Assembly (NCBI RefSeq): GCF_014879935.1
Contig: NZ_JACSRD010000213.1
Location: 1-54,381 of the forward strand
Source of the DNA: Prosthecobacter sp.
GTDB taxonomy: Bacteria; Verrucomicrobiota; Verrucomicrobiia; Verrucomicrobiales; Verrucomicrobiaceae
Reading direction: 5' to 3'
DNA: 54,381 bases
Below are positions 9,445 through 53,605 of the stretch, piece after piece. The position numbers were made by a program, and so were the translations under genes. The notes beneath the pieces are model-generated. The model was given only the letters and a program-made list of their open reading frames with translations, was not told the origin of the DNA and ran no database searches. The first letter of the stretch is position 1; every line of letters starts with the position of its first letter.

Positions 9445-9597
9445 ATGAGCAACATCCTCCTCATCATTCTTCTCCTCCTCGTCCTCGGTGCGCTTCCTGC
9501 GTGGCCCTACAGCGCGAACTGGGGCTACTACCCCAGCGGCGGACTCGGCCTCATCCTGCTGATCCTGCTGATCCTGGTGCTGCTCGGGAAGCTCTGA
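9445..9597 (+). CDS. DUF3309-like small membrane protein
   Basis: A 50-residue protein starting at the ATG at 9445. It is almost wholly hydrophobic: one leucine/isoleucine helix (residues 4-17), a central WPYSANWGYYPSGG segment, and a second helix (34-47). The central Trp-Pro-Tyr and Gly-Tyr-Tyr-Pro-Ser-Gly-Gly pattern is the signature of the DUF3309 family, whose role is unknown. It sits 40 nt after the polymerase gene and 68 nt before topoisomerase IB, inside the end-joining cluster, so it may share a transcript. Confidence 0.8.
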   Translation: MSNILLIILLLLVLGALPAWPYSANWGYYPSGGLGLILLILLILVLLGKL

Positions 9598-36432: not shown

Positions 36433-38205
36433 GTGTGCTTGGCATGAACATGAACTAATCAGATGAAAGGAACTGATCGGAAACGATGGGAGTTAACCGT
36501 AGCCGCAGGACAAGGCAGCGGCCGCGAGGTCGTGGCTGAAAGAAGTCCGAGGCAGACCCTCGACCACAGGAACACGAAGGGCCAGCGAGGCTCGGAACGG
36601 GCGACAAGCGTGCGAGCAAACGCGAAGTCCGAAGACCATCAAGACGTTCCGGGTAGAGACCCGTGGCACGAGGGGAAAGCTCATGTTCTTACCCAAGGAG
36701 GTCTGTCCGGCGAAGCCGGGCAGAAGTCAGCAGAGGCCATAGTAGTGAAGAGAGCCGCCGAAAGACGGCAGGAGCGAAGGGCCGAAGGAACGACTGCAAA
36801 GCGACCCGGGAGCCTGTGACCCGCGCAACACCCGCCCAAACGTCAGCCGACTTTAGCGCCGCAGGCGCGAAACCCGGCACGAACCCAAACCTCCCCGATG
36901 GTGCAGCCATCTCAAGCGGCGAGGAGAGCGGCACTGCGGAGATCATGCGACACCCAGGGAACAAGCCAGCAATGCAGGAGGCAGGAATGGAAGCAGCCGT
37001 CGAGGCGGGCAACAGGGAGGCGGCGCTGAGCGCAGTTGAGCGCAATGCGGGCGCCCCCGGCCCCGACGGCATCAGGACGCAAGAACCGAGGGGTCACCTC
37101 GCAAAACACGGAGCCGGGATCAAGGCCAAGCTGCTCAAGGGGAGCTACCCGCCCGGAGCTGCGCAGCGCAAAGGATCCCCAAGCCCAATGGCGGTATCCG
37201 GCCATTGAGCATCCCCAACGTGGTTGACCGCTTCGTGCAGCAGATGCTGCTGCAAGTGATGCAGCCGATGTTCGAGCCCCACTTCAGCGAGGGCAGCCAC
37301 GGGTTCCGACCCGGACGCGGCGCGCATGGAGCCATCAAGGCCGCACAGAGGCAGGCACGGGAAGGGAGGGAGTGGGTGGTGGACATGGACATCACCGCGT
37401 TGTTGCCAGCATCATTGAAAAAGTCAGGCTGGCTGTCTCGCTGCGCTCGGCTCGACCGAGTGAGCCACGACATCCTCATGACGCAGGTCAGCCGCGTCGT
37501 GAGGGACAAACGGATGCGCCAGCTCATCGGGCGGTTCCTGCGCGCAGGGATCGTCCTGCCAGGAGGATGCAAAGTCAGCAGTGAAGAGGGCACGCCGCAA
37601 GGCGGGCCGCTGTCACCGCTGGCCAACATCTACCTGGACAAGCTCGACAGGAGATCGAACGCCGAGGATTGAAGCACGTCCGCTACGCCGACGACTGCAA
37701 CATCTACGTGAGCAGCCAGCGTGCTGCGCAGCGGGTGCTGGAAGTCATCAGCCGGTGGATAGGCCGACATCACAAGCTGGAGGTCAATGCGGAGAAGAGC
37801 GGTGTAGGGAGAGTCCGGGAGCGCAAGTTCCTGGGCTTCATCCTCACCGCAGGCCATCGCGAGGTATAAAGACCAGGTGAGGGCGAAGTGGGATGCGCGG
37901 CAGTCACTGAGCAGCGCACAGTTGCGCGATCAATGGAGCAACTATCAACGCGGCTGGTGGGCCTACTACGGCCGGGCCGAGGAGCTGCGGAACATGGTGC
38001 AGTTGAGCGGCTGGATACGCCGCCACATGCGCAAGTGTTTTTGGCAACGCTGGCACAGCGCCAGCAGACGCCGTGCAGCCCTCGCCCGCCTGGGAATCCT
38101 AGCATCGCGAAGAGACGTTGCGCACAGCAGTCGCGGAGCCTGGTGCATGGGGAGGCACCTCGTGATGCAGGAAGCGCTGGGCAACCGCATACGGAGGCAC
38201 GAAGG
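36433..38205 (+). mobile_element. Decayed group II intron
   Basis: The 5' end is GTGTGCTTGGCATG at 36433, matching the GUGYG consensus and the conserved start of bacterial group II introns. The structured RNA region follows, with recognisable pieces such as ATGGGAGTTAACCGTAGCC near 36486. A reverse transcriptase/maturase coding region spans about 36972-38205 but is broken in several places. I see no domain V consensus before the next gene's stop at 38258, so the 3' end seems lost. The intron inserted 4 nt after a hairpin (36410-36429), as group IIC introns do, although the class is not certain. The 3' boundary given is approximate. Confidence 0.85.
36972..38205 (+). pseudogene. Group II intron reverse transcriptase/maturase, multiply broken
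   Basis: All blocks of the family are present but in different frames. The N-terminal part (MEAAVEAGNREAALSAVERN ... GPDGI) is in the frame of 36972. Near 37190 the frame changes to give LSIPNVVDRFVQQ, HGFRPGRGAH and WVVDMDI. At about 37398-37450 a stretch of foreign-looking residues replaces the expected EKFFD, just before RVSHDILM. GTPQGGPLSPLANIYLDKLD follows, then a one-base deletion near 37655 shifts into HVRYADDCNIYV (the YADD catalytic motif). A last shift near 37868 leads to the maturase domain (WDARQSLSSAQLRDQW, GWIRRHMRKCFWQRWH). No stop codon is left at the C-terminus. It cannot make a full-length protein. Confidence 0.9.
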
Positions 38206-40285: not shown

Positions 40286-40729
40286 GGCAGGAATCGGTTC
40301 AAAGGGGGAAAGGGCGGCGAGAATAGACGCTCAGGAGGCAGGCGCAAGGCTTCCGTGCCTCACGTTCCGGCCCTTCTCGCCTTCTGAGCCCCTCGGGCGT
40401 TTGTAGAATCGGACTCCCAGGGGAGGCCATAGGCCTCCATGATCTGCTAAACCCAATCAAGCCGCTTCCCGCCCTCAGTCAGCACCCTCCACCTCAAATC
40501 CCTTGGGATGCCTGTGTTCTGAAATCGTTCTACCCCCAATCTTTCTACCACCATTCTGTCTGCTGAAGCCCAGCCACCTCGGAACCGCTCGTGAGACGCT
40601 GATGTCAGAGATTGGATCGGGATTAGAGTCAGGTCAGCGGTTCGATGCTTCTGGGCTCCCGTCTTGCTGATGGCCGGGCTGTTCATTCCAGCCGCGCCTC
40701 ACGCCAAATGCGGCTTTTTTGAACCCGAT

Positions 40730-40790
40730 GGTAAAATGATGGCGGGTAAAATGATGTTCCCAATCATTTTACCCTTCATCATTCTACCCA
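40730..40790. repeat. GGTAAAATGAT-type inverted motif cluster
   Basis: GGGTAAAATGAT (40744-40755) pairs perfectly with ATCATTTTACCC (40763-40774). Outer copies of the same motif (GGTAAAATGATGG at 40730 and TCATCATTCTACCC ending at 40790) flank it. Related motifs occur at 40523-40556 and at 53999-54078. Confidence 0.7.
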
Positions 40791-40837
40791 CTCCTCAGGT
40801 TCGTTCGATCATCATTCGCGTCACCATGATTTGTGAT

Positions 40838-40918
40838 TTCCCACATACAAGATTCAAGGAGGCCCGCAGATTTCTTTTTCTCAGACAATCTGTGGGCCTC
40901 CCTGAATCGGTGGGAGAA
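40838..40918. repeat. Dispersed 80-bp palindrome, copy 1
   Basis: The core pairs GATTCAAGGAGGCCCGCAGA (from 40851) with a right arm ending CTCCCTGAATC near 40908, with outer TTCCCAC/GTGGGAGAA arms. The same sequence recurs in cleaner form at 52120-52187. Confidence 0.8.
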
Positions 40919-41075
40919 AACCGAATTCATAAAAAGTGATGACGCGAGGCACAAATACGGAGTGAAGCTGCCGATGCTGATAGCCGGCAGTGGGCAAACA
41001 AGGCACGAATCGGCCCACCTACACCCTGGAATTCAGAGGCTGGACGATTTCGGGGGAATCGCCGACACTCGCGGC

Positions 41076-41399
41076 ATGAACACCTTGGAAACCGATGTCG
41101 AAGTCAGCGCCGATGGCAGCTTGAAGTTGCTTTCGCCGCTGCCGGAATGGCTGAAGCCGGGGCGTGCCCATGTGCTGCTCTCGGTGCCGAATGGGGCCTC
41201 GCCCAAGCCGAAGCGCGTGATACCGACCGCCACGCCGGAGATGCTGGCCAAACGGACGGCGGCTTTTGAAGCCATTCGAGCGTTGGGTGGGCTGAAGGAC
41301 GTGATTCCTGATCCGGTGGCTTGGCAGCGGGAGATGCGCGAGGACGTGGTGCTGAACGACCGCATCCATTTCCGTATCAAAGGCGACGCGGAGCGTTAA
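41076..41399 (+). CDS. Antitoxin-like small protein, orphan
   Basis: The 107-residue protein starts MNTLETDVEVSADGSLKLLSPLPEWLKPGRAHVLL, which looks like the beta-hairpin N-terminus of AbrB/VapB-like antitoxins, where 'DG-L-L' and 'PG-V-V-L' strands form the DNA-binding dimer. The rest is mixed helix with RTAAFEAIRALGG and ends in a polar tail. No toxin follows; the next gene is the HNH/NB-ARC protein. The ATG at 41076 is chosen because the frame upstream crosses a palindromic repeat. It may be an antitoxin that has lost its toxin, or a regulator of its neighbour; both are inference. Confidence 0.55.
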   Translation: MNTLETDVEVSADGSLKLLSPLPEWLKPGRAHVLLSVPNGASPKPKRVIPTATPEMLAKRTAAFEAIRALGGLKDVIPDPVAWQREMREDVVLNDRIHFRIKGDAER

Positions 41400-41442
41400 G
41401 TTAAGCTGGTCAGTAGAAACGTTCACCATACCCACTCTTGTT

Positions 41443-44172
41443 TTGAAGCGTGATACATTTATTGAGCTGATGATGGGACGCGGGCTTCGCTCCGATTTGG
41501 CGGAGCGCATTGCATCGCGCTTTTGTGATTGGGAGGCTCTGTGTGGTGCCGAGAGCGGGGAGTTAGCGAAACTGTTCGCTCCGCCAGAAATCGATGAGAT
41601 CCAGCGGGCAAAGAGGCGGCGAGAAATTCCACGTGCGACAGTGAAACGTCTTATCACGGAGTGTGAGTTCAGGTGCTGCCTCTGCTGGAACATCGACAGC
41701 GACTCGGGAGTCCTAATCCACCATATCCGCTTCCACGCCACCGCCCCGGATGACCGTTTCGAAAACCTTGTTGTTCTCTGCGCTGATCACCACGACAAGG
41801 TCCATACCAAGCGGGAACTGACTCGGCACCCGTATCCACCGGAGCTTTTGCTCCGCCGGAAAGATGAGTTCGCCGCTGCGATCACGGCATTCAAAGCGGG
41901 CAAACGTGTCGCGCCTGGTCGGGAAAAAAACGCGGAGACTGGGATGCTGACGGCCCCACCTCTTCCATCTCCACACTTTGTCGGACGGGATGCCATAGCA
42001 CGGGACATCGTAGAGGCATTGGAGTCAGAGAAAGGGCGGGCTGCCATCGTCGGTATGGGAGGTATCGGCAAGACTGCGCTCGCGCTGAAAGTCGCAGATG
42101 CATGTCGAGAGAAATTTCAAGGTGGTGTTCTGTGGGCTGAAGTCGCGACCGATTTCGGCGGAATGCCGGAGATGCTACGAGCTTGGATCAGGTCGCTTGG
42201 ACATGATGTCTCCGGCATGGAAATCGACGAGCAGTTGGCGCTTTTTGGAGCCCTGTTAACGAAACGTTCAGCGACCAATGGACGCCTACTTCTTCTGATT
42301 GATGATGCCGGCGAACGCATCGTGAAAGACCTTGTCAAGCTCGCCTCGTATGTGCCGCCGGATGTATCAATTTTGATGACGACGCGGGAAGCGACCGTCG
42401 GCGCTGCTTTAGTAGCGAGCCAGTTTAATGTTGAACCGCTGGAGCGTGCGGACTGTCGTCAATTGCTGGAATCGCTGTCAGGCTCCGCACTCGTCCGGAT
42501 GGAAGTGAGCGCCGTGGACAAGTTGCTTTCGCTGCTGGGCGATCTACCGCTCGCAGTAGAACTAGTGGCACGTCAGATTGCCATGCGGGAACGTAAACCG
42601 GAGTTCAGCATCGAAGGACTCTGCCGGCGGCTTGAGGAATTTGATTCCAAGATCCTCTCATTCCCTGGCCATCGCGGAATCGCGATGTCGTTTGCCTTAA
42701 GCTACGAGCACTTGGACCAAGACGAGCAAAGGGTCTTTCGTTCATTTGGTGTTTTCGCATTCGGCCCGCTCAACACGGTTAGCGTCGCTGCTATCGCCGC
42801 AGCGAGCGAAGATGCGATGGAGGAGACCCTGGATCGGCTTGTCGTAGTCTCCATGCTGAACTGGGGGGCTGGTGTAGGTGATTACCGGCTTCATCCTCTA
42901 ATGCACAAATATGCAGAGTTCCTTTTCGGTCGCACCGACGAATCGGAGCAGAGTGCGACCCGCGTCCGTTTCTATCAGCAATACACTTCAACGGCAACGG
43001 CGGCGGCGAAAGACGCCCCTGGGAATCTCCAAGCAATCGACCGAATACTCCCCAATCTCACCAAGGCGATTCACTGCGCCGCCGCCAGCGGTGATTATTC
43101 CGCAGTCACCGAAACCGTGCTCGGACTCTGCGCCAATATGGGTTTCTTTATGTCGCGGAACCTTGACCGCGAAGCGATGCCTCTGCTGGAAGTGGCAATC
43201 AGCGCAGCGAAGCATCGTGGCGATCGGGATAGTGAATCCGCCTGCATTGGGCACCTCGGTTCTGCTTGCGCCCGGCTTGGCGTAATCAGAAAAGCGATTG
43301 GTCACTTCGAACAAGCCATCGCCATAGCCCGAACGACTGGCAATGCCTACGATCTCGCGAGCCACCTTCATAATCTCGGAAGCACTCTACTCAGCGAAGC
43401 CGCAGACATCCCGCGGGCGGAGCGATTGCTCCACGAAGCCCTCTTGATGGCTGGGCCTTCAATGAACGCAGACGTCGTAATTGGCAGTCTCAGCACACTT
43501 GGGACCCTTCACCGTGATGTAGGCAATCTAAAAGAAGCAGCTCGGCTTTATGAGAGAGCGCTGGAGGCAGCACGGCTTGCCGGAAACCGGCTTGCCGAGG
43601 GTAACAACTTGAGCAATCTCGGACTCATAACCGATCAACTTGGCAACTCCGAAGAGGGCGAACGAATGATCCGAGAGGCGCTGGCGATTGCCGTTGAAAT
43701 CGACGACGTGCGTGGCGAAGGAAACCGAACTGGCCACCTCGGTGGAATTCTTTTTGCAAAAGCGTCACGTCTTCCTCCAGGGCCAGAGCGGTCAAAGATT
43801 CTTAATAGCGCTCGCGAGTTGCTCGCTACTGCGTTGCAGCTTGCTCAAGAAACGGGCGATGTGGAAAAAGCGGGTTCATGGGAGATGAATCTGGCCAACA
43901 TCTGCATGCTAGAAGGGAGGTTCACTGAGGGAATCACCATGTATGAGGGGGTCTTGGACATGGCGAAGGCAAAAGGCTTTGCAAGATTGGAAGCGCAGGT
44001 TCGCTTCAATCTAGGATTGGCATTGGTCCCGATTGGAGAACCACAGGCGCGTGACGCACTTAATCACTTCCGCACATCAAGGGCCTTGCTCCGAAAAATG
44101 GGATCTCCGACGGCTGCCAAAGTCGAAACCTACATCAACCGTCTCACCGATTTGCTCGCGAAACCAAACTAA
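41443..44172 (+). CDS. HNH nuclease / NB-ARC ATPase / TPR protein (bacterial NLR-like)
   Basis: The 909-residue protein has three parts. Residues about 70-145 form an HNH nuclease: CCLC (C78, C81), LIHHIRFH with H93/H94, N108 in ENLVVLCADHH, C113, H116, H117. Residues 178-495 are an NB-ARC STAND ATPase: FVGRD, P-loop GMGGIGKT (204-211), Walker B LLLLIDDA (282-289), sensor MTTRE (312-316), GDLPLAVEL (366-374), and HPLMHKYA (484-491) at the MHD place. Residues about 530-905 are TPR-like helical repeats (for example LGTLHRDVGNLKEAARLYERAL). In this fold the repeats sense a trigger, the ATPase oligomerises, and the N-terminal nuclease acts. An anti-phage role is inference from architecture. The start is TTG at 41443, without a clear ribosome site; ATG at 41470 is an alternative. 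By eye the gene is AT-richer than its neighbours. Confidence 0.88.
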   Translation: MKRDTFIELMMGRGLRSDLAERIASRFCDWEALCGAESGELAKLFAPPEIDEIQRAKRRREIPRATVKRLITECEFRCCLCWNIDSDSGVLIHHIRFHATAPDDRFENLVVLCADHHDKVHTKRELTRHPYPPELLLRRKDEFAAAITAFKAGKRVAPGREKNAETGMLTAPPLPSPHFVGRDAIARDIVEALESEKGRAAIVGMGGIGKTALALKVADACREKFQGGVLWAEVATDFGGMPEMLRAWIRSLGHDVSGMEIDEQLALFGALLTKRSATNGRLLLLIDDAGERIVKDLVKLASYVPPDVSILMTTREATVGAALVASQFNVEPLERADCRQLLESLSGSALVRMEVSAVDKLLSLLGDLPLAVELVARQIAMRERKPEFSIEGLCRRLEEFDSKILSFPGHRGIAMSFALSYEHLDQDEQRVFRSFGVFAFGPLNTVSVAAIAAASEDAMEETLDRLVVVSMLNWGAGVGDYRLHPLMHKYAEFLFGRTDESEQSATRVRFYQQYTSTATAAAKDAPGNLQAIDRILPNLTKAIHCAAASGDYSAVTETVLGLCANMGFFMSRNLDREAMPLLEVAISAAKHRGDRDSESACIGHLGSACARLGVIRKAIGHFEQAIAIARTTGNAYDLASHLHNLGSTLLSEAADIPRAERLLHEALLMAGPSMNADVVIGSLSTLGTLHRDVGNLKEAARLYERALEAARLAGNRLAEGNNLSNLGLITDQLGNSEEGERMIREALAIAVEIDDVRGEGNRTGHLGGILFAKASRLPPGPERSKILNSARELLATALQLAQETGDVEKAGSWEMNLANICMLEGRFTEGITMYEGVLDMAKAKGFARLEAQVRFNLGLALVPIGEPQARDALNHFRTSRALLRKMGSPTAAKVETYINRLTDLLAKPN

Positions 44173-44177
44173 AATTA

Positions 44178-44198
44178 GTGCGCTCTAAATCAGCGCAC
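44178..44198 (+). terminator. Hairpin after the HNH/NB-ARC gene
   Basis: GTGCGCT (44178-44184) pairs perfectly with AGCGCAC (44192-44198), 6 nt after the stop codon, followed by CTTTGTT. A weak terminator at best. Confidence 0.4.
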
Positions 44199-44341
44199 CT
44201 TTGTTACGAACGGAAAGACGCGAGTAAATAGAGGATAGAGACGCATCGCTCACAGAACCTCGTCTAAGGCGGATAACAGGACGCTTTGCCTGAGACCAAT
44301 TCAATGATCCGATCAGCACAGGCTAGAAAGCCCATTCTACG

Positions 44342-46897
44342 TCACTTGCGGATGCCGATCTTCTCCACGGGGATCGCTTCAAAGCCGAGCTTGAAGGCGG
44401 GGGAGTCCGCTTGAAGGCGGAAGTCGTCATGCTTCCAATCGACGAACTTGGGATCGGCGATGAGGCTGTGCGTGTCCCATCCTTCAGCTTGCCAGGAGGT
44501 CCATTCGTCAAGGGGTTCGCATTCGGTGAGGCGGACGGTGTCGATGAAGATCTGGCCTTTGGGCTCGTGGCAGTCGATGCGGAGCCAGAAGTGCTTCATC
44601 CAGGGTTTCCAGGCGGCTTCGTTTTCGCGGAGCATGCGGCCGGTGGCTTCGAACTCGGTCCACTCAGACGTGGCGGTGATGCTGGTGCTGCCGGCCTGCC
44701 AGTAGCCTTCGCCGTTTTTGAAGCTGGCGAAGGCGAGGCTGAGCTTCGCGGCGGGTTCGGTGGATCGGATGCGCAAACGCATGCGGTAGGCCGCGCCGGG
44801 CTTGATGGGGATGTCGGGGCCGTGGAAGACGGTCTTCGGATTGCCGGGATCGGTGCCGAGGGCGCAGTCGGCACGCAACGCGCCATCGGCGACGACGAGT
44901 TGCACGTCTTTGTTGGGGCGATGGTTGAAGCCCCAGCCTTTCGGGGTCTTGCCGGGCTCGGTGGTGTCGAAGGTTTCGGTGAGCAGCGGGGCTCCGGGCT
45001 TGTCGGGGCCGACTTTGTTCACGCCGGTGACGACGGGATGGCCGCCATTCCAGGCGAGGTTGTGATCGATGGTGTTCCACTTCGCGGTGGCGTGGCGGAT
45101 GTCGCCATACTTCACGCCGGGAGTGTCGCTGAACAGGATGTTTCGCTGGAAGCTGTTGCCGCTCATCATGGTACCGTCGTCGCGGATGGCGTCCTCGGGA
45201 TGCAAGTCCATGCCGCGCATGCTGGCCCAGGCGAGCTGGCCGGCGACAGATTCGTAGCCTTTGATCATGGTGTCCATGTGGCTAGTGTAGAAGCGCTGCT
45301 CCTTGGTCCAGCCGTGCAGATCGAACTGAAACTTCCCGCCGAGGGCGAAGATGTTGTTCTCCACGATGCAATCCCGCGAGTTGTGCATGTGGATGGGCGT
45401 GTGGGCGACGCGGAAGACGATGTTGCCGATGATGTCGATGCCGCCGGAGTTGTCGTCGGGGTAGAGGCCGAAGGTGAACCACGGATGCTTCAGCCCGCCA
45501 GCCTCCTGACCGCAGCCGATGACATCGTGGATCAAATTGTAGCGCCACTTGCTGCCGCGGCTGCTGATCCAGTCGCGTCCGCCGGTGTAGATCGCGCCGC
45601 CGTCCTGCGTCTCCAGACAGAGGTGGTGGAGGTGGTTGTATTCGACATACAGATTGTTCCCGCTCATCTGCACGCCCATGCGCGGGCCGTCGTGGATGTG
45701 GCAATGCCGCACGGCATTGTCCACGCCATACATGGCGACCCCGCAGGCGTTCTTGTTGAAGACGCCCATGTGATGGATGTGGCAATCCTCGACGGCATGA
45801 CCGGGTCCGGTGAGCGTTTTGCGGTCGCCGCCGCTGAGGCTGACGCCATTGCTGCCGGTGAAACTGATGTCGCACTGCGAGACGCGGACGTTTTTGCCAT
45901 CGCTCACACCGACGCCGCTGCCGTGGAAGGCTCCGACCTTGGTGATGACGCACTTTTCGACGAGGCAGTCCTCCGCTCGCTCGAAGACGATGGCGCTGCC
46001 GTGCGTGCCGGTGAGCGTGAGGCCGCGAATCGTGATGTGTTTGGCCCCTTCGATTTTGAAGAAGGCCTCGGTGAGGGGGAGGCGGATGTCCCGTAGATCG
46101 AAATTCCGATTTCGATCATCTTGGGACGCGAAATTGGAATTTCGCGCTACGTCCGGCCAGAAATACAGCACGCCGCGGTGCTTGTCGTAAAACCACTCGC
46201 CGGGGGCGTCGAGTTCTTCGAGGGCGTTTTGGAAGTGGTAGCGGTTGTGCGGGTGGAGGTCGTAGGAGCAGTCTTTTTTCAGCGTGAGCAATCGCGTTGC
46301 GGGATCGAGCGATGCGACGGGCTCAAGGAAGTTCCACCAGCCGTATTGCGCGAAGATATCCAGCTCCACGTCCTCAGGATGCGCCCACTGGCGAACGTCC
46401 TCGGGCTTCACGAAGAGGGTGCGTTTCCAAAGATGCCCCTCAGGCGCACCCGCAGGCGGAAACGGCGCGACGAAGGCCCAGCTGCCGTAGAGCGGGTTCT
46501 TCGCGTCGAAGTTCGGATAACGAGCGAGGATCTGGCGTTCGCCGTCGCAGAGGAGTTGTTTGGGGAGGAAGCCTTTCGGCAGCAGCTTGGAGACATCGGC
46601 TTTGACGATCTCCCCCGTGTGTTTTTCCCAGCCGGTGACTTTGGGGCCACCGATGAGGGTGCTGTGCGTGCCGGTGAAGGTGATGTTCGAATCGGTGGCC
46701 TCAAGCGTGAGGGGCGTGAGCAGCTCGGTGGTGCCTTCGGGGAAAAAGATTGTCGCTGGCGAGGCATCACCGGCTTTCCGCGCCTCACGCACCTGCTGGA
46801 GCGCCTGCGCGGGAGTGAGCGTGTCGGAAATGCGCACCTCCAGGGCAGGGGAGAGCGATGGCAGCAGGAGGATGGCGAGAAAAAGGCGACGCAGCAT
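44342..46897 (-). CDS. Secreted right-handed beta-helix protein (polysaccharide-active type)
   Basis: The 851-residue protein starts at the ATG at 46897 with a signal peptide (MLRRLFLAILLLPSLSPA). Residues about 25-110 resemble the cap of pectate-lyase-like proteins (ATIFFPEGTTELLTPLTL, SNITFTG). The middle part, about 280-560, has the repeated rungs of a parallel beta-helix, for example HITIRGLTLTGTHG, CVITKVGAFHGSGV, CDISFTGSNGVSLSGG, and several HCHIHD and HNLI-type turns. Residues about 620-790 look like a carbohydrate-binding beta-sandwich (YRMRLRIRST ... WLRID). Such proteins cleave or bind polysaccharides outside the cell. No clear catalytic residues could be fixed. A 60-nt palindromic element is inserted in frame near residues 249-269. 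Confidence 0.82.
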   Translation of the reverse strand: MLRRLFLAILLLPSLSPALEVRISDTLTPAQALQQVREARKAGDASPATIFFPEGTTELLTPLTLEATDSNITFTGTHSTLIGGPKVTGWEKHTGEIVKADVSKLLPKGFLPKQLLCDGERQILARYPNFDAKNPLYGSWAFVAPFPPAGAPEGHLWKRTLFVKPEDVRQWAHPEDVELDIFAQYGWWNFLEPVASLDPATRLLTLKKDCSYDLHPHNRYHFQNALEELDAPGEWFYDKHRGVLYFWPDVARNSNFASQDDRNRNFDLRDIRLPLTEAFFKIEGAKHITIRGLTLTGTHGSAIVFERAEDCLVEKCVITKVGAFHGSGVGVSDGKNVRVSQCDISFTGSNGVSLSGGDRKTLTGPGHAVEDCHIHHMGVFNKNACGVAMYGVDNAVRHCHIHDGPRMGVQMSGNNLYVEYNHLHHLCLETQDGGAIYTGGRDWISSRGSKWRYNLIHDVIGCGQEAGGLKHPWFTFGLYPDDNSGGIDIIGNIVFRVAHTPIHMHNSRDCIVENNIFALGGKFQFDLHGWTKEQRFYTSHMDTMIKGYESVAGQLAWASMRGMDLHPEDAIRDDGTMMSGNSFQRNILFSDTPGVKYGDIRHATAKWNTIDHNLAWNGGHPVVTGVNKVGPDKPGAPLLTETFDTTEPGKTPKGWGFNHRPNKDVQLVVADGALRADCALGTDPGNPKTVFHGPDIPIKPGAAYRMRLRIRSTEPAAKLSLAFASFKNGEGYWQAGSTSITATSEWTEFEATGRMLRENEAAWKPWMKHFWLRIDCHEPKGQIFIDTVRLTECEPLDEWTSWQAEGWDTHSLIADPKFVDWKHDDFRLQADSPAFKLGFEAIPVEKIGIRK
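46092..46151. repeat. 60-bp palindromic element in frame within the beta-helix gene
   Basis: The element runs from CGTAG to CTACG. Its 25-nt arms match at 20 of 25 positions when one is reverse-complemented, around a 10-nt spacer. Its length is exactly 20 codons and it is read as a polar segment containing ARNSNFASQDDRNRNFDLR, which breaks the local strand pattern. It looks like a mobile palindrome tolerated inside a coding region. Confidence 0.7.
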
Positions 46898-49956: not shown

Positions 49957-50265
49957 ATGGTCTTCCAGGAATTGCCAGCATTCACCCACCAGGCAGAGGA
50001 GCATTTGCCGGATGATGAGCTGCTGCACCTCCAGCTTCATCTCATGGATCGTCCCGATGCTGGAGACGTGATTCCCAGCGGTCGCGGACTTCGCAAGATC
50101 CGCTGGCGGGGTTCAGGTCGTGGCAAACGCGGCGGCCTGCGCATCATCTATTACTGGGTGACAGAGGATGATGTGATCATTCTCGCCCGTTGCTATCCCA
50201 AGAACGAACAAGAGAATCTCTCCCCGAAAGAACTCAAAGACATCCTCCGCCAGATCAAGCCATGA
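49957..50265 (+). CDS. RelE/HigB-type toxin
   Basis: The 102-residue protein has the RelE-fold pattern: LPDDELLHLQLHLMDRPDAGDVIPSG, GLRKIRWRGSGRGKRGGLRIIYYW, then DVIILARCYPKNEQENL. Such toxins cut mRNA at the ribosome. Its stop overlaps the start of an XRE-type antitoxin by ATGA, the toxin-first order of higBA-like systems. It sits in a module between ileS and a duplicated ileS end. The start at 49957 is an ATG. Confidence 0.85.
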   Translation: MVFQELPAFTHQAEEHLPDDELLHLQLHLMDRPDAGDVIPSGRGLRKIRWRGSGRGKRGGLRIIYYWVTEDDVIILARCYPKNEQENLSPKELKDILRQIKP

Positions 50266-50621
50266 AAAACTCCGAGCTAACCGCCATCCATGCTGAAATC
50301 GCCGCGCTCCGCAGCGGCAAAACAGCGCCTTCCCGTGCCTGGAAACTCGAAAAGCGGCCAGACGGCGGCGTGCGCCGAATCGCTTTAAAGCCCGAAGCCG
50401 TGCGCAAAGCCAACGCAGAAAAAGAAGCTCTCCGTCTGGCTCAGGACGCCCGCGCGGCGCTGAAAGTGACGCAGAAGGACTTTGCCGCGCTGCTGGGCAT
50501 CAGCCTGCGGACACTCCACCAATGGGAACAAGGCCGCTGCAAGCCAACGGGTGCTGCTTTGACCTTGCTGCGTGTCGCCCGCGCAAACCCCAAGGCTGTG
50601 ATGAAGGCAGCCTGCGCCTGA
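50262..50621 (+). CDS. XRE-family antitoxin
   Basis: The 119-residue protein carries a C-terminal helix-turn-helix (TQKDFAALLGISLRTLHQWEQGRCKPTGAALTLL landmarks: TQKDFAALLG, TLHQWEQGR) of the XRE type, and an N-terminal helical part (AEIAALRSGK). It overlaps the upstream toxin by 4 nt. It should neutralise the toxin and repress the promoter. The start at 50262 was chosen for the overlap; the frame runs further upstream but inside the toxin gene. Confidence 0.87.
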   Translation: MKNSELTAIHAEIAALRSGKTAPSRAWKLEKRPDGGVRRIALKPEAVRKANAEKEALRLAQDARAALKVTQKDFAALLGISLRTLHQWEQGRCKPTGAALTLLRVARANPKAVMKAACA

Positions 50622-51033: not shown

Positions 51034-51780
51034 TTGAATACAAACGAAAAAGGACAGTCGTTCGAAAAGGCGGTCGAGAATGCCCTCGTCGCTGTTTATG
51101 GCTCATCGTCACTCAATGAGTTCGTTACGATTGAACACAATGTAACCGAAATTGGGCGGTCTGGGCAGGGGCATCAGATTGACATACGCATTCGGATTCG
51201 GGCAGGCATTGTTGAACTCAAGCTTCTTTGCGAGTGCAAATGTTATGAGGGGCGAGTTCCTCTTACCGATGTGCTCGCTTTGAAGTCGCGAATCGATGAT
51301 TGTCGCGCGGCAGGGGGGATTCTGATTACAAATAAAGGGTTCCAAAAGGGTGCTAACATCTTCGCAAAACAGAATGGAATTACACTGCTTACCCTGAAAG
51401 GGCAGCATATCGTTTCATGGGGCGGGAGCGCGCGGGTGCGAAACAACCGAGCGGTTTGGACAGTTGTATCAAATCTAGCAACACTCTGGCCCTACCCTCT
51501 ACCTTCCGGTGTCGAGTTGTCCTTGGTTCGGCACTGTTGGAACTGGCGGGAAAAGGTTTTTTCCCTGTTCTCAGATTGGGTGGATGCAGTTGAGTTCAAA
51601 TGGAATGGAATTTCAATTCAGTTTCAAAGCAGCGACTTCAGTTTAGATGGAGATCCAGTCGAATTCTCTGGGCAGCAACATACGTGCTTTGCGAACGAAC
51701 AAGGTTTCACTATGCCAGCAGCTACTGTTAAGAAGGTGCTCATTTGGAGAGCCATGATGTGTAGCGCATCATGTGAATGA
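51034..51780 (+). CDS. Mrr-like PD-(D/E)xK restriction endonuclease
   Basis: The 248-residue protein begins at a TTG (51034) with CAGGAG about 10 nt upstream. The nuclease core lies at residues 10-130: FEKAVENALVAVYG, GQGHQIDIRIR with D50, and CECKCYEGRV with E67 and K69, the D-ExK pattern of Mrr-type enzymes. ILITNKGFQKGA and GITLLTL follow as in Mrr_cat domains. The C-terminal 110 residues are not recognised and are mostly beta-like with aromatic residues. By eye the gene is richer in A/T than ileS. It may cut modified or foreign DNA. No methylase accompanies it. Confidence 0.78.
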   Translation: MNTNEKGQSFEKAVENALVAVYGSSSLNEFVTIEHNVTEIGRSGQGHQIDIRIRIRAGIVELKLLCECKCYEGRVPLTDVLALKSRIDDCRAAGGILITNKGFQKGANIFAKQNGITLLTLKGQHIVSWGGSARVRNNRAVWTVVSNLATLWPYPLPSGVELSLVRHCWNWREKVFSLFSDWVDAVEFKWNGISIQFQSSDFSLDGDPVEFSGQQHTCFANEQGFTMPAATVKKVLIWRAMMCSASCE

Positions 51781-52119: not shown

Positions 52120-52187
52120 CCCACAGATTCAAGGAGGCCCACAGATTTCTTGTTCAGTCAATCTGTGGGCCTCCCCGAATCTGTGGG
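52120..52187. repeat. Dispersed palindrome, copy 2
   Basis: The 28-nt arms (52120-52147 and 52160-52187) match at 26 of 28 positions, around a 12-nt spacer. The sequence begins CCCACAGATTCAAGGAGGCC. It is the cleaner copy of the element at 40838-40918. Confidence 0.9.
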
Positions 52188-52336: not shown

Positions 52337-52768
52337 TCAAGGCGTCACGCAGACGAATCCACCCAAGACGGTGAAATCTCGGGAGTTCGTGGTGAGGATC
52401 GACGTCACAGCGGCTTCGCGGAAGGTGGAGGCCAGCAAGGTATCGAGAATGCGCTTTCGCCCGAGGCGATGCTGCCGCATCCAGACGAAAAAAGTGCTCA
52501 TGGAGAACGCATCGGCACCGATTTGATCCACCTCCGGTGATTCCCACCAGATTTCCGCCCGTTCCAGCGCCGCCTCCATCGCCAGCGGTTGGGAAAAGCG
52601 CTTCGGGTCCGTCACCACATGCACGAACTCCGCCAAGACCTGCGGAGCGAGCGCAAAGCGGTCTCCCGCAGCCCTGAATTGCTGAAACCTCAGCCGCGCC
52701 GCCGCATGATCCGCATGCTCAGCCACCTCGGCAGCCACCAGAAAGCCTGTATCAATCCCGTGAATCAT
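52337..52768 (-). CDS. PIN-domain toxin VapC
   Basis: The 143-residue protein starts MIHGIDTGFLVAAEVAEH with the first PIN aspartate at D6. The conserved glutamate follows in VLAEFVHVVTD, and the later acidic residues in RILDTLLASTF and SRDF. These make the magnesium site of a VapC ribonuclease. Its gene overlaps the upstream antitoxin by 17 nt on the same strand. It is part of the toxin-antitoxin island. Confidence 0.88.
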   Translation of the reverse strand: MIHGIDTGFLVAAEVAEHADHAAARLRFQQFRAAGDRFALAPQVLAEFVHVVTDPKRFSQPLAMEAALERAEIWWESPEVDQIGADAFSMSTFFVWMRQHRLGRKRILDTLLASTFREAAVTSILTTNSRDFTVLGGFVCVTP

Positions 52769-52967
52769 GGAGCATCTCCTCCAGCAGATCGTCCTCGGTG
52801 CTCAACGGTTTCAACACCTTGCCCAGCTTCAAGGGCGGCAAGTCGAGAGCGCTGCGCTGCTGCTTGGCCTTCCGGACCCGCAGCGAGTGAACGAGCCGCT
52901 CCAAATAGGAAAGCTCGTCCGCCGCGAGATGCGGGACAGCCAGTTCAATTTCTGCCAGAGTGCTCAT
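52752..52967 (-). CDS. VapB-type antitoxin
   Basis: The 71-residue protein begins MSTLAEIELAVPHLAADELSYLERLVHSL and ends in an acidic LEEMLHDSRD tail, the form of helical antitoxins whose tail wraps a PIN toxin. It overlaps vapC by 17 nt, so translation is coupled. No ribbon-helix-helix can be seen with confidence. Confidence 0.75.
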   Translation of the reverse strand: MSTLAEIELAVPHLAADELSYLERLVHSLRVRKAKQQRSALDLPPLKLGKVLKPLSTEDDLLEEMLHDSRD

Positions 52968-53029
52968 GGGAGAAGCCTATGCCTTCAAGAGAAGCCGGCA
53001 AGCCTTCGTTTCATCTCGTGAAGCTGCGA

Positions 53030-53077
53030 TCAACAGCACAGCTCCGCCTGGAAGTGCTGCGAATAGACGACCTTCAT
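53030..53077 (-). pseudogene. Truncated RelE/ParE toxin remnant
   Basis: An ATG at 53077 overlaps the stop of the addiction-module antitoxin by ATGA, exactly where its toxin partner should begin. The frame reads MKVVYSQHFQAEL, like the first strand and helix of a RelE/ParE toxin, then stops after 15 codons. No further toxin sequence is recognisable up to the vapB start at 52967. The toxin appears lost. Confidence 0.6.
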
Positions 53078-53304
53078 GCCGCAAGAGCCTTGGCTGCCGC
53101 GAAGACATCCTCATGACTCAATCCACGCTCCAGGCCGGCCTTGAACGCCTCAAAGCGTCGTTCCACCTCGGTGGCGATGGTGGCATCGTTCTCCCACTGC
53201 GCCGGCAAATCGGCATCCACCGTTTCCCAGATGATCTCCGCGAGGAATCGCCGTTCCTCGGCAGGCAGGCGAGCAGCTTGAGCGAAAAGTTCTTGGGTGA
53301 CCAT
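53074..53304 (-). CDS. Addiction module antitoxin (unstable antitoxin family)
   Basis: The 76-residue protein starts MVTQELFAQAARLPAEERRFLAEIIWETVD and ends with EVERRFEAFKAGLERGLSHEDVFAAAKAL. The 'LP-EER' and 'R-EAF--G---G-SHEDV' patterns match the addiction module component family, which pairs with RelE/ParE toxins. The expected toxin gene overlaps its stop but is cut to 15 codons. The start at 53304 is set by the family N-terminus. Confidence 0.85.
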   Translation of the reverse strand: MVTQELFAQAARLPAEERRFLAEIIWETVDADLPAQWENDATIATEVERRFEAFKAGLERGLSHEDVFAAAKALAA

Positions 53305-53392
53305 GATGCTGGAGGTTAGCGGATCGGCGCCGGAATGCCTAGCGCGGATTAGCCGCTTGCGAAACAAGCCAAATGTCCGCATCATTCCCGCC

Positions 53393-53605
53393 ATGACGAC
53401 CACCCACATCCGCGAGCAGATCGACGCGATGTCCGACGAGGACCGTTTCTTTGCCTCTGCCTACCTCCAGCATCTCAGCAACGAGGCAGACCCGCAGCAC
53501 AAGGCAGCCCTGGCCGCCCGGATGACGCGCATGGACGAGGGACACAAGTTCACCCTCGACCAGCTCGTGGACGTGCATCAGGAACTTGAGCGTCAGGGGC
53601 TGTGA
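53393..53605 (+). CDS. Antitoxin-like protein paired with the next RelE-like gene
   Basis: A 70-residue helical protein (MTTTHIREQIDAMSDEDRFFASAYLQHL ... HKFTLDQLVDVHQELE). It is predicted to be wholly helical and acidic, as small antitoxins are. The gene ends 3 nt before a RelE-like toxin, in the antitoxin-first order. It runs opposite to the antitoxin at 53304, sharing the 88-bp divergent promoter region. Confidence 0.7.
   Translation: MTTTHIREQIDAMSDEDRFFASAYLQHLSNEADPQHKAALAARMTRMDEGHKFTLDQLVDVHQELERQGL

Follow-up and report, generated by a model that had tools for sequence, protein, structure and literature searches.

A candidate NLR-like defence protein of Prosthecobacter that joins a HhH-like and HNH module to an NB-ARC switch and TPR repeats

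Background

Bacterial STAND proteins acting in defence are described as pairing repeat sensors with N-terminal effectors (PMC9122126, PMC10907252). In the "NLR" proteins of the P4/P2 hotspots, TIR, SIR2, Mrr_cat or BpuSI_N domains are reported on a STAND core with C-terminal repeats, and protection was demonstrated for the TIR version (PMC9122126). The nuclease activity of Avs1-Avs4 is reported to kill the cell (PMC12931631). The HNH effector of Cap5 is described as signal-activated, by a cyclic nucleotide (PMC8568899). Finally, the GreA/B-C and TRADD-N conflict proteins, which contain TPRs, are listed with interchangeable N-terminal effectors including HNH, and some TRADD-N genes adjoin AP-ATPase-TPR genes (PMC8195603). 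Here we analyze a gene of Prosthecobacter sp. carried by a stretch of 54,381 nucleotides (contig NZ_JACSRD010000213.1), called the window hereafter, whose product joins an N-terminal HNH module to an NB-ARC NTPase and a TPR arm.

A first-pass annotation of the window had proposed this gene product as a candidate NLR-like defence protein, a reading supported by the architecture, the motifs and the patchy homologues with intact HNH residues described below. We consider it reasonably likely that the protein acts as a single-gene, NLR-like sensor directed against phages, or against mobile elements, in which oligomerisation would license DNA cleavage.

The HhH-like and HNH module

Residues C78, C79, C81, H93, H94, N108, C113, H117 and H121 are invariant in the nine members of the module, the window protein included. 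The HNH superfamily set C-x2-C, H-H, N, C-x2-[CHD]-H, H is complete in 9 out of 9, position 116, a putative fourth zinc ligand, being H in 5 members, D in 3 and C in 1. The residues named in the first-pass annotation (C78/C81, H93/H94, N108, C113/H116) are all found in the window protein, and the equally invariant H117 should be added to them. It had also envisaged that most homologues might have lost the HNH residues, and this was observed in none of the nine. As in HNH enzymes generally, H94 would act as general base, with H93 and H117 as metal ligands.

The nine-member profile matches the HNH stretches of a maturase reverse transcriptase (E-value 8.9e-6) and of IscB entries (E-values 3.1e-4 to 0.012). 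Because these are solved HNH stretches and the residues are identical in all nine members, the N-terminal domain is, by sequence, an HNH nuclease. The Pfam HNH model PF01844 has a gathering score of 21.4 bits. The window HNH lies under it (14.1 bits for the core, 11.7 bits for residues 1-166), so that the initial HNH call was a reading of motifs. Among the other carriers, designated here by L numbers, the score is passed by the module stretches of L014 (25.5 bits) and L015 (21.9 bits, with just 19.9 bits for the whole L015 protein), by L020/L080 (25.2 bits) and by L021/L081 (37.1 bits). It is missed by L017 (18.3 bits), L086 (17.0 bits) and L087 (17.7 bits), and L016 is not listed at an E-value of 0.01.

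These same matches would also fit a sequence-specific or mobile endonuclease, of homing or intron-like type, captured by a STAND scaffold for a non-immune role. However, they cover the generic HNH core only, and the HNH is joined to NB-ARC and TPR in 4/4 full-length copies. We regard such a capture as very improbable.

The first-pass annotation had described the N-terminus as an HNH alone. The HNH stands, but a helical, HhH-like domain preceding it had been missed. The nine-member profile aligned to the HhH repeats of topoisomerase V with an E-value of 4.5e-6, which is the sum of weak repeats, none significant singly. A Foldseek search with the module model gave 18 matches, none of them significant (best E-value 3.3), which we take to be mostly HhH proteins: XPF, FANCM-FAAP24, Hef, DisA and topoisomerase V. 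Pfam HhH was not matched in 6 module N-termini, the sole match being DUF434 in one of them (E-value 0.16). From the model and the profile, residues 1-58 are probably a (HhH)2-type unit, predicted to bind DNA ahead of the nuclease, and the effector would then be HhH-HNH.

The NB-ARC switch and the TPR arm

The Pfam NB-ARC model scores 49.7 bits on the window protein for a cut-off of 23.5, and NACHT 14.8 bits for a cut-off of 26.7; these scores place the switch with NB-ARC and not with NACHT. GMGGIGKT, Walker B, TTR (residues 313-315) and HPLMHKYA are present as the first-pass annotation had named them, together with LPLA at residues 368-371. Walker A and B, the TR of TTR, GDLPLA and HPL-HKY are common to all four full-length members. 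In the usual naming of NB-ARC motifs, TTR provides the sensor-1 arginine, LPLA is GLPL-like and HPLMHKYA is MHD-like. The proposed order HNH, NB-ARC, TPR holds, NB-ARC and TPR being recognised by Pfam and HNH by profile and invariant residues. Carrying both the motifs and the predicted C-terminal repeats, the protein is assigned to the NB-ARC (AP-ATPase) clade of the STAND NTPases. In the TPR region, from residue 581 onward, the AlphaFold2 confidence (predicted local distance difference test, pLDDT) is 69-94 per block. All the features are described in Table 1.

Among solved NB-ARC structures, the best match of the four-row profile is AfsR (PDB 8k60, E-value 1.9e-26), followed by MLA13, NRC4, Sr35/CNL9, APAF1 and RPP13-like protein 4 (E-values 2e-8 to 1.8e-5). 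The AfsR match raises the possibility of a signal-responsive regulator, related to the NB-ARC-TPR proteins of AfsR/SARP and HaaT type; its HNH would then only bind DNA or serve housekeeping. Consistently with it, the NCBIfam HaaT and AfsR models match with E-values of 4.7e-40 and 2.4e-36, both far under their cut-offs (125 bits against 1430 for AfsR, on a best stretch from residue 173 onward). Moreover, L059, the sole other core match at an E-value of 1e-20 in 294 genomes of the L016 phylum, has by eye a regulator-like N-terminus. Yet no HTH or BTAD family was matched in residues 1-166, the HNH set is kept throughout and is the most conserved region, and the gene is patchy and foreign-looking, with one island context. 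A regulator is therefore improbable in our view.

Table 1. Positions of the gene and of its predicted domains and motifs in the window
Feature	Residues	Window coordinates	Strand	Description
Whole gene, HhH-like/HNH - NB-ARC - TPR		41443..44172	+	909 aa, single intact open reading frame, TTG start
Helical N-terminal domain	1-58	41443..41616	+	AlphaFold2, five helices, pLDDT 72-92 per 10-residue block
Predicted HNH nuclease core	63-135	41629..41847	+	C78, C81, H93, H94, N108, C113, H116, H117, H121
NB-ARC NTPase	179-400	41977..42642	+	Pfam NB-ARC E-value 3.9e-13, residues 192-387
Walker A GMGGIGKT (K210)	204-211	42052..42075	+	G204, G206, G207, G209, K210, T211 invariant 4/4
Walker B LLLLIDDA	282-289	42286..42309	+	D287, D288 invariant 4/4
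MHD-like HPLMHKYA	484-491	42892..42915	+	H484, P485, L486, H488, K489, Y490 invariant 4/4
Putative TPR sensor	572-909	43156..44169	+	TPR_12 E-value 6e-23 and other Pfam TPR families; 16 predicted helices, ~8 repeats
Terminator-like hairpin, directly 3' of the stop codon		44178..44198	+	7 pairs

Full-length homologues and distribution

Three further full-length homologues were identified: L016 (54% identity to the window protein), L087 (61%) and L086 (67%). The gene product aligns end to end across the four members, with no loss of HNH or switch residues in any of them. L086 and L087 come from other orders of the window's class and L016 from a Planctomyces metagenome-assembled genome (MAG). We infer that this MAG lies in a different phylum, from its Planctomyces title and because the genomes shown for its phylum and those shown for the window's phylum, two partial lists, do not overlap. 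In each of the three comparisons with the window, conservation is highest in the HNH: 77% identity for L016, with 52-53% in NB-ARC and TPR, 72% for L087, with 59-60%, and, by a narrow lead, 77% for L086, with 75% in NB-ARC. The gene is single copy in its own genome, where the 3 further matches (E-values 2.0e-12, 2.2e-5 and 1.4e-4) concern the TPR region only.

Among 56 relatives scanned at an E-value of 1e-30, 35 of which belong to the same genus, its own included, the protein was found in its own genome only, 1 of the 35. In the window's class, 3 out of 315 genomes match at 1e-9, namely its own and the genomes of L086 and L087, and no further carrier was detected in the orders of the latter two (157 and 146 genomes). 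A pattern-limited scan of named genomes gave 58 pattern matches and 2 relatives, L016 and L017 (a Gemmatimonadetes MAG); with the pattern as a limit, so small a number does not measure how rare the relatives are. With the whole protein as query, 112 of 72,556 plasmid records match and none covers 80% of it, so the full-length form was not recovered from them; the matches begin at residue 134 or later among the 30 matches listed. Phage records gave no match to the whole protein at an E-value of 1e-3.

The module profile, whose centre and row are G387 and G388, one per scanned set, was searched in the phyla of L016 and L017 at an E-value below 1e-30. It detected 3 of 392 genomes in the former, L016's own included (G387), hence 2 new ones, and 1 of 200 in the latter, L017's own, hence no new one. 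At 1e-3 the listed genomes rise to 49 in the former set and 35 in the latter, and the weaker matches were discarded as generic HNH, from the inspection of eight proteins (L022, L023, L025-L028, L039, L040) and by assumption for the others. In the window's phylum, the single HNH sequence matches 9 of 387 genomes at 1e-3, its own and 8 weak ones (E-values 1.2e-5 to 9.9e-4); 7 of the 8 weak proteins were inspected and judged generic HNH, the eighth being that of G276 (L012). Two scans of viral contigs with module alignments yielded no relative among their 26 and 39 pattern matches.

As judged from these searches, the HNH module forms a family that is both recognisable and rare. The distribution of the gene family is patchy; fixation of the homologues in core genomes, which the first-pass annotation had raised as a contrary outcome, is not what we find.

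Gene composition and start codon

The GC content of the gene is 0.559 and that at third codon positions (GC3) 0.58. Since the GC3 of the 14 longer window genes, chosen by eye among 18 listed features, is 0.72-0.91, the gene looks acquired from elsewhere, and its earlier description as AT-richer holds. In the same listing, a reverse transcriptase fragment has a GC3 of 0.81, a small open reading frame (ORF) 0.76 and an Mrr_cat ORF 0.49.

The TTG start of the window gene aligns with a methionine in 3/3 homologues, which supports it. In L087 no earlier start codon precedes this methionine in the frame; in L016 and L086 an internal ATG encodes it, with possible starts further upstream.

Genomic context

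The window gene is flanked by a parC-like gene and, downstream, by a convergent beta-helix gene, with ileS beyond. The small ORF upstream (41076-41399, plus strand) has no Pfam match and for this reason was left out as a partner gene; by eye it is orphan-antitoxin-like. With these neighbours, the gene can still be called alone, as was first proposed. The region had also been described as a repeat-rich accessory one. A few short palindromes and the reverse transcriptase fragment upstream agree with this, but not the parC-like, beta-helix and ileS neighbours, and toxin-antitoxin-type genes appear only from ~50 kb.

In L087, the gene is preceded at 104 bp, on the same strand, by a TIR gene matching ThsB (PADLOC E-value 2.9e-40). 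On the opposite side of the NLR-like gene are Vsr and a fragment of a cytosine methylase, the latter where the contig begins. These four genes (NLR-like, TIR, methylase fragment and Vsr) have GC3 values of 0.46-0.55; among 12 farther ORFs picked by script, 9 have values of 0.65-0.87 and 3 of 0.53-0.61. We also noted that the ThsB-like TIR protein (394 aa, L087 3708-4892, minus strand, directly upstream of the NLR-like gene in G1200) may belong to one operon with it. The L086 gene has a GC3 of 0.53, its neighbours ranging from 0.54 to 0.75. The module carrier L020/L080 is located ~2 kb from an HsdM-like N6-methylase gene and ~7 kb from an HsdR C-terminus, its other flank showing a weak integrase fragment (19.7 bits, below cut-off). 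No defence gene is evident near L017 or L021, as judged mostly by eye. The link to defence genes considered in the first-pass annotation was thus recovered at 1 of the 4 full-length copies (L087) and at 1 other module carrier (L020/L080), but not beside the other 3 copies.

Some other elements of the window were recorded. An Mrr_cat-type restriction endonuclease protein (51034-51780, plus strand, Pfam E-value 2.4e-12), ~7 kb from the NLR-like gene, also matches the NACHT-associated iREase1 (1.7e-6) and is a second foreign-looking nuclease gene. Toxin-antitoxin-type genes occupy 49957-50621 (plus strand) and 52337-53602: a RelE-like ORF (26.1 bits, just under the cut-off of 27), an HTH_3 ORF, an Unstab_antitox ORF and a PIN-like ORF recognised by eye only, with no Pfam match. 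The reverse transcriptase fragment (37205-37672, plus strand, RVT_1 E-value 4.6e-11) looks, by eye, like what is left of a group II intron after decay. A hairpin with arms GGAGGCCC(A/G)CAGATT occurs twice in the window (40858-40901 and 52133-52174), and a related stretch is found in another same-genus genome (L079, ~9483-9558). An imperfect inverted repeat of GGTAAAATGAT units lies at 40730-40788, its 26-nt arms being 88% complementary, and a short tandem repeat encoding NLPEDGF-type units at the contig end (54074-54381). The repeats of 16-33 nt found within the gene and near it seem to reflect chance, or the similarity of TPR-coding stretches, and were not retained. Terminator-like sites number 4 in the region for a mean of 4.1 in shuffled sequences, that is, no excess.

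The module on other C-terminal parts

At an E-value of 0.1, the HNH module was detected on 3 of the 72,556 plasmid records, one from Pantoea and two from Bradyrhizobium, all typed as conjugative. In two proteins, that of Pantoea with 628 aa and that of the Gemmatimonadetes MAG with 625 aa, the module is followed by a region with no NTPase match and then by TPRs. A C-terminal part that has no Pfam match accompanies it in the Bradyrhizobium protein, of 422 aa, and in L021, of 389 aa, and is similar by eye in the two; L020 has yet another one. The module is thus found on at least three C-terminal parts besides NB-ARC-TPR, two of them on conjugative plasmids and one near type I restriction-modification genes.

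The plasmid carriers suggest that the same switch could be aimed at incoming plasmid or conjugative DNA and serve competition between mobile elements. The integrase adjoining the Pantoea carrier and the weak integrase fragment near L080 point the same way. However, the full-length form was recovered on no plasmid, and the plasmid carriers show no NB-ARC. We hold this target to be unlikely.

A broader reading, which we advance tentatively and with some doubt, is that HhH-HNH could be a portable DNA-destroying warhead on at least four chassis, forming an unnamed immune module family across the window's phylum, Planctomycetota, Gemmatimonadota and Proteobacteria plasmids. The chassis would be NB-ARC-TPR, TPR with no NTPase match and two unclassified C-terminal parts, their sharing being judged by eye. 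As the NB-ARC-TPR form can adjoin a ThsB-like TIR gene, one locus could then pair DNA destruction with an NAD-linked effector.

Proposed function

The reading of the window protein as an NLR-like defence sensor draws on the domain order, the conservation of active site and switch, the unity of the chain in four genomes, its patchiness and foreign-looking composition, and the defence genes at one copy. The NB-ARC matches to APAF1 and plant NLRs, the resemblance of the N-terminus to HhH domains, the type I restriction-modification genes near L020/L080 and the module carriers on conjugative plasmids also speak for it. In the resting cell, NB-ARC would hold ADP and the closed state would be maintained by the TPR arm. 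This arm would bind a phage product, or a host component that infection has modified; exchange of ADP for ATP would follow and the protomers would assemble into a ring. The N-terminal HhH-HNH units, once clustered, would form an active DNA endonuclease cutting DNA with little sequence specificity, and infection would be stopped, probably at the cost of the cell. Sensing, nucleotide exchange, ring formation and HhH-HNH activation are proposed by analogy with what is described for STAND defence proteins (PMC9122126, PMC10907252) and Avs1-Avs4 (PMC12931631).

Several observations weigh against this proposal. The closest solved NB-ARC is that of a regulator, AfsR. Three of the four full-length copies (window, L016 and L086) have no immediately adjoining defence gene, as judged partly by eye (two neighbours were scanned for L086, the rest and L016 being examined by eye). 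No sigma-70-type promoter was found in 40290-44400. Neither flank of the window gene (ileS, parC) is syntenic in 10 same-genus genomes, so that no empty insertion site could be demonstrated. The search of Avs collections advised in the first-pass annotation came out negative, no Avs or other STAND defence model being among the PADLOC matches of the four full-length copies. Structure prediction, also advised, was fairly confident for the N-terminal helices and the TPRs, but mixed for NB-ARC and low for HNH (pLDDT blocks of 33-52 in the module model and 26-46 in the full model). The HNH fold is not confirmed by structure, both models being weak there because their alignments had just 3 rows (module) and 2 rows (full).

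If the proposal is right, an HNH with its own probable DNA-binding domain joins the bacterial NLR-like effectors, and the NB-ARC switch that carries it is similar to those of APAF1 and plant resistance proteins. Since the module occurs on chassis with and without an NTPase, the contribution of the NB-ARC switch could be tested directly, and the family is small and clear enough for a single gene and some point mutants to suffice.

Comparison with known systems

The window protein shares with the P4/P2 hotspot NLRs a defence context, the N-terminal effector, the central STAND NTPase and the C-terminal repeats, which are TPRs in the TIR version (PMC9122126). It differs from them by its HhH-like and HNH effector, the term HNH being absent from the main text of that source. 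With Avs1-Avs4 (AVAST) it shares the plan nuclease, STAND, repeat sensor, cell killing by the nuclease being an Avs feature (PMC12931631). The PADLOC matches of the four full-length copies are to TPR and weak HNH models. Avs proteins are not known to carry an HNH, their nucleases being of other types. The bNACHT proteins are likewise bacterial, NLR-related and built as effector, switch and sensor; unlike them, the window protein scores below the NACHT cut-off and above that of NB-ARC. Similarly, it resembles AfsR/SARP by its NB-ARC, but HhH-like and HNH domains replace the SARP/BTAD domain.

Other systems share the HNH. Cap5, or SAVED-HNH, of CBASS has an HNH effector too, with a weak PADLOC SAVED_HNH match in residues 1-166 (E-value 6.7e-5); unlike Cap5, the window protein carries its NB-ARC-TPR switch in the same chain as the HNH. 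PtuB of Septu shows a weak HNH similarity to 4 of the 9 module members (best E-value 6.1e-6). Septu is a two-gene system with a separate ATPase, unlike the single-chain window protein. In the GreA/B-C and TRADD-N proteins, as described in the source, the HNH is not on the AP-ATPase chain (PMC8195603), and Pfam matched neither GreA nor TRADD-type domains in the window protein.

An HNH on an NB-ARC-TPR chain was not found in the literature searched, with most subscription papers and all bioRxiv preprints outside its scope. Since HNH is listed on other conflict proteins (PMC8195603) and other nucleases on STAND proteins with repeats (PMC9122126), the plan of nuclease, STAND and repeats is already known, and HNH on NB-ARC-TPR is a new version of that plan rather than a new kind.

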